Source of the DNA: Paenibacillus aceti
Lineage (GTDB): Bacteria > Bacillota > Bacilli > Paenibacillales > Paenibacillaceae
Direction of reading: 5' to 3'
NCBI RefSeq assembly: GCF_003614185.1
Contig: NZ_KZ987724.1
Coordinates: forward strand, 1,232,159 to 1,296,158
DNA length: 64,000 nucleotides
The stretch's first letter is position 1. Each line of letters opens with the position of its first letter. Under the pieces are notes generated by a model. That model was not told the DNA's origin. It did not search any database and saw only the letters and a program-made list of their open reading frames with translations. Shown piece by piece: positions 12,677 to 57,829 of the stretch. A program made the position numbers and the translations under genes.

Positions 12677-13099
12677 CAGGCTAGTGTTAAAGCCCGGGGG
12701 ATCCGATGGCGGATGAAGTCACTTGATGAAGTCTCCTGATGAGTGGATGGGCGGCCGGGGGATAGGTGAATCTGTTAGCTAGTAGACGGATCGTCGAAGG
12801 CTTGATAATTGCGTTTGCTAGTAGATAGAGGGGCTAGTAACTGGATGGCTAGATGGCTGGATGATGGCGGGCGGATCATAAGTTGGCGGTGAGCGCTTCC
12901 GTTTCTGGGGAATAAAGTAACTTTAATGTTGTGCTTCACGCAAATACCTGCAAAAGTGCAGGCTTTTGTTGAGCGTTCCGCTTGAAGTAACTATAGCAGT
13001 CCGCCATTATGCCCTAAACGATTAGCTGACGTGACTTCGGTAGACATAATTTCCGACGGCCTGAGCTTTTAACCCAATGAATTATTTGTACGTCGGGTA
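12677..13099. other. Gene-free stretch with decayed short repeats
   Basis: No credible reading frame is present. Between 12711 and 12900 there are imperfect direct repeats (TGATGAAGTC occurs twice, CTAGTAG-type words recur, and a run of GGATGGCTAGATGGCTGGATG-like words ends near 12875). One CCTGCA-type palindrome relic lies at 12942-12967. The rest shows no recognised signal. Confidence 0.5.
12942..12967. repeat. Solitary CCTGCA/TGCAGG palindrome
   Basis: The 26-bp imperfect inverted repeat AAATACCTGC-AAAAGT-GCAGGCTTTT has the same core as the four-palindrome elements at 20901, 37247 and 57642. No partner palindromes are found at the expected 50-60 bp offsets, so it is probably a relic. Confidence 0.6.
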
Positions 13100-20900: not shown

Positions 20901-21088
20901 AAAAGCCTGCAAATATGCAGGAATTATCACTCCAAACCCGTGGTTCTGAGTAAATTCCTGCAAAAGTGCAGGCTTTTACCCCTATTTCCTTGAAATCAAG
21001 CCGATCCGAAGAAAATTCCTGCATAATCGCAGGAATTTATCATTTCAGGCCGGAAGTAAGCAAAATTCCTGCATATTTGCAGGAATTT
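20901..21088. repeat. Four-palindrome intergenic element, CCTGCA/TGCAGG core (copy A)
   Basis: Four 26-27 bp imperfect palindromes lie at 20901-20926, 20952-20978, 21012-21038 and 21062-21088. Each has the form AAxxCCTGC-N5/6-GCAGGxxTT. Centres are 52, 60 and 50 bp apart. The three inter-palindrome sequences match those of the copy at 57642 (for example AAATCAAGCC in the middle spacer of both) and, in reverse complement, those of the copy at 37247. Confidence 0.85.
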
Positions 21089-21246
21089 GCCACCAGCGCG
21101 CGATTTCCATGTGAGCACAGGCACTATAAGTGGTAGTTCGATTGCGCCAACATCTTAATTTTACAAACATAACTCCTTAAGATCACGCATTGTAGGGTGT
21201 ACCCACTTCCAACATAATGAAACTATAGATGTTGAGCTAAATTGCT

Positions 21247-21434
21247 GATAAGTGCGAATATGCAGCTATATGGCTACTTTTCAGCCTCCACTCAAGATAT
21301 AACTGCTCCTATACAACTATTCGCAAGGATTTCTTACAAACGGGGCTTTCGTCAGGAAAATAGTTGCAATTACGCAGTTATTCCCTAATTCAAGGGTCGT
21401 TTCCCGAGAAATAAGTGTATTTCAGCAGCTATTA
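21247..21434. repeat. Four-palindrome intergenic element, TTGCA-type core (copy E)
   Basis: Units lie at 21247-21270, 21296-21321, 21358-21382 (AAATAGTTGC...GCAGTTATT) and 21408-21434. Centres are 50, 62 and 51 bp apart, the same geometry as the adjacent CCTGCA element. The middle spacer (GATTTCTTACAAACGGGGCT) is alignable with that of copy A (TATTTCCTTGAAATCAAGCC). Confidence 0.6.
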
Positions 21435-33699: not shown

Positions 33700-33720
33700 G
33701 AATGAGCTCTGGACCGACGC

Positions 33721-33905
33721 TTAGTTGCAGAAATACACTTATTCGGGCAAAATCAGCTTGAAGTCAGAAAATAGATGCGTATATGCAACTATTCCCTGTA
33801 AAAAGCACCGATCGAAGTAAAATTCATCCGTATAATTGCATAATTGCAGTTATATTACCGGTTACCCGAATCATGCAGGCGTATAGTTGTATATATGCAG
33901 TTATA
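33721..33905. repeat. Four-palindrome intergenic element, TTGCA-type core (copy D, inverted)
   Basis: Units lie at 33721-33743, 33768-33792 (AAATAGATGC...GCAACTATT), 33831-33854 and 33881-33905. Centres are 48, 62 and 51 bp apart. In reverse complement its spacers align with those of the CCTGCA copy at 37247 (for example TTACTTCGATCGGTGCT against TTCCTTCGAATCAAGCT). Confidence 0.65.
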
Positions 33906-33918
33906 TCTCTATAACTGT

Positions 33919-37246: not shown

Positions 37247-37436
37247 AAATTCCTGCAAATAGGCAGGAATTACTTCTACCCAGCGCCCTAAAGTGGAAAA
37301 TTCCTGCGAAAATGCAGGAATTTGCTCCGGATGAGCTTGATTCGAAGGAAATACGAGTAAAAGCCTGCACTTCTGCAGGCTTTTACTCGTAACAGGTGGA
37401 TTCATGCGCCAAAGCCCGCATATTTGCATCTTTTTT
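37247..37436. repeat. Four-palindrome intergenic element, CCTGCA/TGCAGG core (copy C, inverted)
   Basis: Units lie at 37247-37272, 37297-37322, 37359-37385 and a degenerate one at 37411-37436. Centres are 50, 63 and 51 bp apart. The reverse complement of its middle spacer (TATTTCCTTCGAATCAAGCT) closely matches copy A (TATTTCCTTGAAATCAAGCC), so this copy is inverted relative to A and B. Confidence 0.85.
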
Positions 37437-43185: not shown

Positions 43186-44223
43186 GTGAGGAAAATAGTG
43201 CTTGCTATAATGATGTCGGTCAGTCTATGTCTCCTGCTTGCGGGCTGTTTTGGATCAGCCAAAGAAACGACGGTAAATAACAACCTCAACTCGTCGCCTG
43301 GGGAGGATTCCCCGGCAGATATATTTGCAAACGATCCTTCGCAGATTGGGATGGGCATGTTCAGTTACGGAATTGTGGCGCCTAATGATGATCAGCAGGT
43401 GTATGAGTATACAGGCGAGGAAGTTCATATCCCTTTTAAAGTGACCGGTCTTGATGAAGAAGTCAGCTCCGACTTCGGCTTGCTGGTATTCGTGGATGGA
43501 TTGGCACAGCCATACAGAATCCAGGCGAATCCTGCTGAACCGAGTGCAGAACAGCTGATGCATAAGTTCTCGCTCAAGTATGAGGAGACAGAAGAGTTCG
43601 ACATCGTGTTCACACCGGTCTCCGGGCAAAAAGGCGATAAGGTCGGCGTCGTATTCGCCACGATTCTTCAGCCCGATTACAAGCCTGAGAATGAGAATAA
43701 GCCCAATTATGGGATCTATCATAGCTTAAGTGCGACTTTATCGCAGGAAATTGAATTCCAGGCGGATCTGAGCGGAGATAAGATGCTGCAGCCTTATAAG
43801 GATGCGGTTACCGAGGATATCCCGGAAGAAATCAAAAATCAGGCAGAAACGGTTCTGACGGATGGGAGCTCCGATTATCTCGATGAGACGACGGTAAATG
43901 AGCTGCTGCCGGAAGATCCCGATCAAAATCTGATTACCGCAGCTAACGGAAAGGCTAAACTGAAATTCCGCATATATGGCGGATTGGAGACTACTTATCG
44001 CACCACGATCTTTGTAAATCATACGCCGGTTCAGGTGAAGGGCGCTGATTATATCGAGACTACGCTGCAGAAGGGGAAGATGAATACCGTCGAGATCGAA
44101 TTGGATACGAGTGCTTATGATAAGCTGAACACGATTTATGCGATCTCCGTCGTTTCCGGCAAAGACTATTTAACGAACAACAACTCTCCACTCAAGACTA
44201 AATCGCTGCTGTTGTATAATTGA
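43186..44223 (+). CDS. Lipoprotein of unknown function
   Basis: 345 residues from GTG 43186, with TAGGAG about 8 nt upstream. The longer TTG frame from 43150 is not favoured. Lipobox LLAGC with Cys21. The mature protein is acidic and probably all-beta, with two Ig-like stretches (VYEYTGEEVHIPFKVTGLDE and TTYRTTIFVNHTPVQVKG) joined by an acidic linker. No enzyme motif was seen. It lies upstream of a second lipoprotein and an ABC exporter but ends at its own strong terminator, so it is transcribed separately. Confidence 0.78.
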   Translation: MRKIVLAIMMSVSLCLLLAGCFGSAKETTVNNNLNSSPGEDSPADIFANDPSQIGMGMFSYGIVAPNDDQQVYEYTGEEVHIPFKVTGLDEEVSSDFGLLVFVDGLAQPYRIQANPAEPSAEQLMHKFSLKYEETEEFDIVFTPVSGQKGDKVGVVFATILQPDYKPENENKPNYGIYHSLSATLSQEIEFQADLSGDKMLQPYKDAVTEDIPEEIKNQAETVLTDGSSDYLDETTVNELLPEDPDQNLITAANGKAKLKFRIYGGLETTYRTTIFVNHTPVQVKGADYIETTLQKGKMNTVEIELDTSAYDKLNTIYAISVVSGKDYLTNNNSPLKTKSLLLYN

Positions 44224-44231
44224 ACTGAATT

Positions 44232-44256
44232 TAGCTGCGGAGACGCAGCTATTTTT
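44232..44256 (+). terminator. Strong terminator after the first lipoprotein gene
   Basis: TAGCTGCG (44232-44239), four-base loop GAGA, CGCAGCTA (44244-44251), then TTTTT. Confidence 0.92.
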
Positions 44257-44591
44257 GGTTTCAGGGTGAAAAGCCTGCATTTTGCAGTTTTCGAGCTTAT
44301 GCGAGGGGCACGGACAGGAACAGACAGTCATTTTATCCAAAATATTGATTATAATACATTTATATGTTACTATTTATCGTGTGTAATCAAATTAATGGTA
44401 ATTATTATATTATATTCCATATCACAATTTTATGTAATCACACCATCACCAGGTCCTTACGCATCTATCACTCTACTAATCTTCCTCACATAACTATTAA
44501 CGTTATTAGACTCCACGATGTTGCAGACGAGAATTCTCACCTATCGCTACATTTCAGTATTTGCTAACCCAATAAAGGATGTGGATGAACT
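44257..44591. other. AT-rich intergenic region upstream of the exporter operon
   Basis: It contains one decayed CCTGCA-type palindrome (AAAAGCCTGCATTTTGCAGTTTT, 44269-44291) and a TATAAT near 44349 without a clear -35. No credible gene is present. The promoter of the following operon must lie here. Confidence 0.5.
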
Positions 44592-57641: not shown

Positions 57642-57829
57642 AAATTCCTGCAAAAGTGCAGGCTTTTCAATCCCAAACCGCCTCTTCTGGATAAATACCT
57701 GCAAATATGCAGGTATTTCCTTATATTTTGGCTAAATCAAGCCTATACGGAGAAAAAAGATGCATTTTCGCAGGAATTTACTCTTTTAGGACGAATATCA
57801 GCAAAATTCCTGCATAATCGCAGGCTTTT
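57642..57829. repeat. Four-palindrome intergenic element, CCTGCA/TGCAGG core (copy B)
   Basis: Units lie at 57642-57667, 57693-57718, 57753-57780 (degenerate left arm) and 57803-57829. Centres are 51, 61 and 50 bp apart. Spacers are homologous to copy A: CCAAACC...TTCTG in spacer 1, AAATCAAGCC in spacer 2, and a TTTxAGGxCG-like word in spacer 3. Confidence 0.85.

Follow-up and report, generated by a model that had tools for sequence, protein, structure and literature searches.

The 64,000-nt stretch of Paenibacillus aceti DNA analysed here (hereafter the window) contains copies of a discrete unit of about 188 bp, which has sharp ends and a fixed length and consists of four TGCA-N4-TGCA dyads. 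Free drift of the spacers at near-unchanging dyad distances suggests a protein docking site rather than an ordinary repeat, and we assign a probability of about one half to the reading that fits best, namely a double-stranded DNA docking array for a putative dimeric protein, with the dyads on one face of the helix.

Three four-palindrome elements had been reported in the window by a first-pass annotation made from the sequence alone, and all three were confirmed at the places given. Array A1 (20901..21088, plus strand, 186 bits) has dyads at 20906-20921, 20957-20972, 21018-21033 and 21068-21083, with spacings of 51/61/50 bp. Array A2 (37247..37435, minus strand, 169.3 bits) has four dyads spaced 51/61/51, one outer dyad being imperfect (GATGCA / TGCGGG), and array A3 (57642..57829, plus strand, 177.7 bits) has four dyads spaced 51/61/50, the third of which is imperfect (AAGATGCA on one arm). 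The dyads of these A arrays are CCTGCA-N4-TGCAGG, some of them imperfect. A relaxed palindrome pattern matched the window 20 times, counting each palindrome on both strands, versus a shuffle mean of 0.05, and a fixed-spacing three-dyad pattern gave 3 matches, from A1 and A3, against 0 in 100 shuffles. The first list of three was incomplete, as it missed arrays B1 and B2, a lone dyad and a broken array. Array B1 (33719..33906, unstranded, spacings 50/61/51, 41.9 bits, E 1e-9) was found by a geometry-only scan; the degenerate array B2 (21246..21434, plus strand, spacings 51/61/51, 49.4 bits, E 1e-11) was found also, by the covariance model described below, and adjoins A1, starting 157 bases after it in the same intergenic region. 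Both have half-sites of the form TGCA-NN-TATT, with 3 core mismatches in B1 and 6 in B2, compared to at least 11 in the 272 random window stretches scored. A second half-site class (TGCA-NN-TATT) coexists with class A (TGCAGG-NN-TTT) at the same geometry in one window. The lone A-type dyad (12925..12966, dyad 12943-12966, plus strand, 20.9 bits) is flanked by genes for an amine oxidase and a class II tRNA synthetase and is perhaps the remains of an array. The broken array (44194..44293, minus strand) is a partial match of 25 bits.

The exact palindrome was found 210 times on the forward and 208 times on the reverse strand of the 5.6 Mb genome to which the window belongs (G000), compared to 1 and 2 times in a reversed control. 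A covariance model built from 14 copies placed arrays at no fewer than 83 separate places in this genome (strands merged, from the 150 candidates scored). The proposal of an element of about 190 bp was thus borne out by its sharp ends, its fixed length and its at least 83 places. Rather than being scattered singly with spacers that could not be aligned, 84 of the first 100 exact palindromes (of 210 on that strand) fell inside model-detected elements, and the copies aligned. Among the 16 outside, 5 of the 15 inspected scored above 40 bits and are part arrays, and the sixteenth is the lone dyad of the window. A profile search of all 83 places (3 in the window and 80 elsewhere) gave 86 matches, of which 68 were full-length four-dyad units, so that the number of inner modules is near-constant; the other 18 were partial or weak, some of them plainly shortened.

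The geometry of the full-length copies was almost invariant. When each dyad was placed independently, by seeking it in its own zone (an earlier count with 61 fixed beforehand was left out), the inner spacing was 61 bp in 68 of 68 copies and the outer spacings were 50 or 51 bp in 134 of 136; both the model and the filter for full length favour copies free of indels, and this constancy applies to 68 of the 86 matches. A free-spacing scan (40-63 outer, 50-75 inner) of the same genome gave an inner spacing of 61 in 61 of 62 arrays and an outer spacing of 50 or 51 in 119 of 124. Internal dyads were conserved as well as terminal dyads, and conservation ended a few bases beyond the outer arms. Since the whole element is roughly dyad-symmetric, the covariance model matches it on both strands. 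Read outwards, the half-site is TGCAGG-NN-TTT, with mostly A, C or T at position 7 and A or T at position 8. The spacers between the dyads, by contrast, shared a mean identity of just 40-49% in the 68 copies. Furthermore, core identity stayed constant at 0.94-0.96 while spacer identity dropped from 0.6-0.7 to below 0.3 among G000 copies, and this steadiness of the core within one genome is a second sign of constraint. Constant distances combined with drifting spacers indicate a machine measuring double-stranded DNA. The best common helical period of the four dyad centres was 10.1-10.2 bp, with an R of 0.92-0.94 (0.93-0.94 in the first set and 0.92-0.93 in a cleaner set) versus 0.37-0.38 at 10.5 bp. 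Free B-DNA has close to 10.5 bp per turn and protein-wrapped DNA close to 10.2, and it is on this comparison that the idea of wrapping rests.

At the RNA level, the palindromes would instead act as transcript hairpins (terminators, 3' stabilisers or attenuators). The dyad cores pair in most copies, the three window copies A1-A3 fold strongly as RNA (z -9.5, -7.3 and -5.3), and one dyad of A1 conforms to a terminator pattern when read on the minus strand. However, the minimum-energy folds of these three copies had three different topologies, and covariation between left and right arms within dyads, between inner dyads, between outer dyads and in the spacers was near the level of shuffles in 68 G000 copies. 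The departures were marginal, with the third-dyad core (z 3.5) and the second-dyad outer arms (z 1.9) above expectation and the fourth-dyad outer arms (z -2.6) and the left by right arms of the outer dyads (z -1.9) below it. Local hairpins, pairing of outer with outer or inner with inner dyads, and mirrored spacers were each rejected, as none showed consistent covariation in the 68 copies. Within-dyad arm identity in G000 equalled the within-genome shuffle level (0.562 vs 0.561); it was not above shuffles in G029 and G016 and slightly above them in G010, G008 and G031 (66, 179 and 89 of 500 shuffles reached the value). Arm identity in G032 favours RNA pairing, being clearly above shuffles (0.757 vs 0.628, reached by 0 of 500) in a sample that holds tandem copies. 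Because arm covariation was absent in G000 and the folds differed between copies, a conserved hairpin is unlikely. In addition, separate hairpins need no distances fixed to 1 bp, the T-run conserved in the half-site is about 3 T, a terminator scan of one region found 2 terminator-like sites (one of them in the element) versus 1.1 expected, and Rfam gave 0 matches in the window. The orientation of arrays relative to tandem genes was only 30 versus 20. We consider an RNA-level element improbable.

By an ORF heuristic, 84 G000 matches were assigned to tandem gaps in 50 cases, convergent gaps in 22 and divergent gaps in 12, and 69 of the 84 overlapped no predicted ORF of at least 300 bases, while 15 did. 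In the tandem gaps the array was nearer to the upstream stop in 34 of 50 cases, a placement that would also suit transcript hairpins. Among gaps of at least 150 bp, the numbers of convergent and divergent gaps were 19 and 9 with an array versus 14 and 39 without (Fisher p 0.0007). Each dyad, with its two TGCA half-sites 8 bp apart, resembles a classical dimer site, and the arrays might then be gene regulatory operators, that is, ordinary repressor sites at particular promoters that were multiplied. We regard this as very improbable: the arrays are rarer in divergent gaps and tend towards the stop in tandem ones, four sites of constant spacing recur in at least 83 places, and clustering of the neighbouring ORFs at 174 loci (clusters unannotated) brought out no single partner gene. 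The docking reading is itself touched by the placement, which could be mere avoidance of promoters and to that extent counts against it.

Across five genomes, 11 of 30 5S rRNA loci (30 given as loci out of 34 found) also had an array within 1.1 kb downstream, namely 3 of 7 in G000, 3 of 3 in G016, 3 of 7 in G032, 1 of 7 in G008 and 1 of 6 in G031. None was found upstream of 5S, a side that is mostly rRNA operon and partly cut short and is thus no fair control. The chance of at least 3 such 5S-associated arrays in G000 was 0.0002, or 0.011 if the intergenic space there is taken as four times denser. At L250 and L252 (G032) and L083 (G016), arrays closely follow 5S rRNA or a terminator like that of an rRNA operon, and some of these 5S-adjacent arrays are near contig ends, the places where assemblies break. 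Regular spacing along the chromosome was rejected for G000 (CV 1.19 vs 0.98 for random) and for G155, where a CV of 0.34 on one contig (7 intervals) was gone over 43 intervals (CV 1.01).

The covariance model had matches in 26 of 59 genomes (G000 included), some of them weak. Among 246 genomes of the order, 37 matched the geometry-only three-dyad pattern, as did 15 of 46 genera, G000 included, against 2 matches in total in the reversed control; these are raw counts of pattern matches. G155 and G242, which belong to another family, had 141 and 137 forward pattern matches. No array was detected in 33 of the 59 related genomes with the model or in 209 of the 246 with the exact pattern, and with so many relatives lacking a detected array its function is therefore dispensable. 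In 76 quadruples from other genomes, the outer spacing was 49-52 in 144 of 152 cases and the inner spacing 60-62 in 71 of 76; these loci were located through their position or by the model, which carries this spacing. These values supersede an earlier pooled figure (157/164 and 76/82), which held loci found by the geometry pattern and one locus of G000 itself. The arms are species-dependent and varied among genomes at constant spacing, with AATAACTGCA/TGCAGTTATT in G032 versus AAATGCA/TGCATTT in G011 as an example; in this comparison, 8 of the 27 loci shown yielded no quadruple. Arms from the same genome were more alike (identity 0.548) than arms from different genomes (0.448).

Whole arrays occur in tandem in G032 and G022. 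Arrays of both half-site classes stand in tandem behind an rRNA operon at L250 of G032, and the A-type partner of the tandem arrays at L252 is poorly resolved. By eye, the tandem arrays of G022 (L257, L258) have a 5-base loop (ATGTTGCA-N5-TGCAACAT) and look like a sister form. Pattern matches that overlap at G242:C4:47112-47346 suggest that five dyads follow one another there at the same run of spacings. As judged by eye, several G000 arrays (L001, L004, L011, L017, L018) adjoin a further dispersed repeat, centred around TCTAACGAAACACCATATCGCTATT; in the window, 2 loose matches to part of this repeat were found, which is not above chance.

Some arrays were found at orthologous sites. An array past a tyrosine recombinase gene is in the same place in G000, G008 and G031 (a same-genus relative) and is decayed in G003, and the orthologous sites of eight other genomes, among the 12 sites examined, had no array. 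G008 and G031 share five further loci, and three of these have an array in G000 as well. In 17 pairwise comparisons at the resulting six orthologous loci, identity was 0.873 in the core, 0.764 in the rest of the dyad, 0.575 in the spacers and 0.576 in the flanks, and gap columns made up 34 of 3258 (1.0%) inside the arrays versus 605 of 3400 (17.8%) in the flanks. The comparisons include the decayed G003 copy, and the loci were chosen since arrays were detected there, which favours conserved dyads. At these ascertained sites, dyads and length are kept while the spacers drift like the flanks.

Other arrays had no counterpart. For 3 of the 12 G008 arrays fetched, the fetched G000 loci include a counterpart, and for the other 9 they do not. 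No array was found within about 600 bases past the orthologue of the array 2 neighbour gene in G003, G008 and G031, among which the same next gene is clearly kept only in G003. About 1 kb past this gene in G003, where array 2 itself is absent, there is a partial array of 32.8 bits (L192:3498-3617). The gene next to array 3 had no array within 1.5 kb in G003, G008, G014, G024 and G031.

Such differences raise a MITE-like, non-autonomous mobile element, in which the dyads would be binding sites of a putative transposase or recombinase and the fixed length would be the geometry for building the DNA complex, so that copies losing it would stop spreading. The ends are discrete; the array is present in some genomes and absent in others at the same gene border; window arrays 2 and 3 were not found beside orthologous genes; and 9 of the 12 fetched G008 arrays lack a counterpart. 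Tandem copies in G032 and G022 are also in line with it. In G155, near-identical dispersed pieces were found in five copies, with 2-7 differences in 80 bases listed, and these pieces indicate that amplification happens somewhere. However, flank matches of the 68 G000 copies equalled the level of shuffled flanks, and hence no target-site duplication was seen, and no recent copy was found among the 68 (top spacer identity 0.69), yet their dyads are intact, orthologous sites included. The suggestion that the element is perhaps mobile therefore stands as far as the differing sites between species and the G155 pieces go, but is weakened by the lack of a target duplication and of recent G000 copies. 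Searches for a phage or plasmid origin were negative: one element had no match in phage or plasmid records, and nine pattern matches on viral contigs were, by eye, phage direct repeats or GC-rich sequence and none an array. Separately, phage contigs L371-L375 and L377-L379 have in common a stretch that, by eye, looks non-coding and contains repeated ATGCAATC; it may be an origin.

With respect to drivers, the one transposase family tested was Y1. G000 has 14 IS200-like copies of equal score (L031-L044), and their identical scores suggest a recently active insertion sequence. Of the 15 other array-bearing genomes tested with the Pfam model, 9 had no Y1 match (G155, G242, G192, G248, G038, G008, G031, G013 and G022; two of the nine are 70-78% complete assemblies), which also weighs against a MITE-like element, and 6 had one (G016, G029, G032, G010, G077 and G252), as did 5 of 9 genomes without detected arrays. 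On this distribution, RAYT/IS200 was rejected as the driver of the arrays, and an IS200/RAYT-like driver, as first proposed, found no support given the equal-scoring copies in G000 and the nine genomes lacking Y1. The arrays are palindromic, intergenic, of high copy number and sometimes tandem, and Y1 matches occur in G000 and in 6 of the 15; even so, REP/BIME elements with a RAYT of their own would require a very divergent RAYT that escapes the Pfam model, and we find this explanation barely credible. The tyrosine recombinase was rejected as well, being also present in genomes without detected arrays (G021, G024 and G026), with 8 of 12 orthologous sites arrayless. Its gene at L172:2701-3669 is XerC/D-like, with a whole array 12-14 bases past the stop and half an array about 415-440 bases from the other end. 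On balance, we regard a MITE-like element as possible and yet rather doubtful.

Under the docking-array reading, one DNA-binding protein would sit as a dimer on each of the four dyads, contacting its two half-sites, of class A (TGCAGG-NN-TTT) or class B (TGCA-NN-TATT). With the 51/61/51 bp spacing, all four dimers would share one face of a helix with about 10.2 bp per turn, and the complex would loop or wrap about 188 bp. Lying between genes, oftener 3' of transcription units and behind some rRNA operons, such a complex may form a local boundary or anchor that acts on topology, transcription or chromosome folding. The arrays would have spread by past duplication, and the dyads plus their spacing would be the part retained. 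We infer the protein, the wrapping, the boundary role and the retention by selection. Of the structural or protein-binding role envisaged in the first-pass annotation, protein binding is thus favoured, and no candidate for a dyad-binding protein emerged from the neighbour-ORF clustering at 174 loci (clusters unannotated). We also count against docking the many related genomes with no detected array, the selection of loci by a model that carries the spacing and by a filter favouring indel-free copies, the decay of the G003 copy at the recombinase locus (locus A), the irregular spacing along the chromosome and the arm matching in G032. In a bolder form, put forward tentatively and as more doubtful still, the arrays would be docking stations for a dedicated, fast-diversifying DNA-wrapping protein, four dimers of which, on one helix face, would condense about 188 bp into a compact particle; there would be dozens to hundreds of these per chromosome, serving as insulators behind transcription units, with at least two specificity classes side by side in one genome on the same geometry and with geometry, not sequence, as the function.

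The usual account of interspersed repeats in bacteria is that they are hairpins which a partner transposase moves. In the present arrays, what is conserved is a set of distances on double-stranded DNA, kept through changes of sequence, arms and neighbours, and this conservation of distance extends over several families of one order. Should the array prove to be a boundary or wrapping element, it would provide a new tool and add a new part to the chromosome biology of these soil bacteria. No title or abstract start among the open-access papers listed described the element (subscription papers were outside the scope), and the main text of PMC12306157 has 0 mentions of Paenibacillus.

According to PMC2817692, REP/BIME elements of enterobacteria and pseudomonads are intergenic high-copy palindromes with proposed roles in protein binding, the chromosome or termination. 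The comparison with them, drawn at the outset, holds by analogy, as the arrays may likewise be described as intergenic and of high copy number (at least 83 places), with several regularly spaced palindromes per element. Compared with REP/BIME as described there, the array differs in having a single fixed spacing for the four dyads of its unit of about 188 bp, no consistent Y1 partner, and no covariation of the two arms in G000. The BOX elements of Streptococcus pneumoniae, as described in PMC3049150, have a variable number of boxB modules and span 67-637 bp. Like BOX, the arrays are modular intergenic repeats of spaced modules that are changed in related species; unlike BOX, their dyad number and spacing are near-constant, the exceptions being partial arrays, tandem whole arrays and the one apparent five-dyad case. 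With MITEs, going by the features given in PMC3049150, they share being short, non-coding, dispersed and roughly dyad-symmetric overall, but they lack target-site duplications and their internal dyads are conserved like the terminal ones. A title in the reference list of PMC2817692 names RIB elements, repeats that bind IHF and lie 3' of transcription units; that title makes no mention of a four-dyad geometry. As putative protein-binding intergenic repeats at 3' ends, the arrays seem closest to RIB in working principle.
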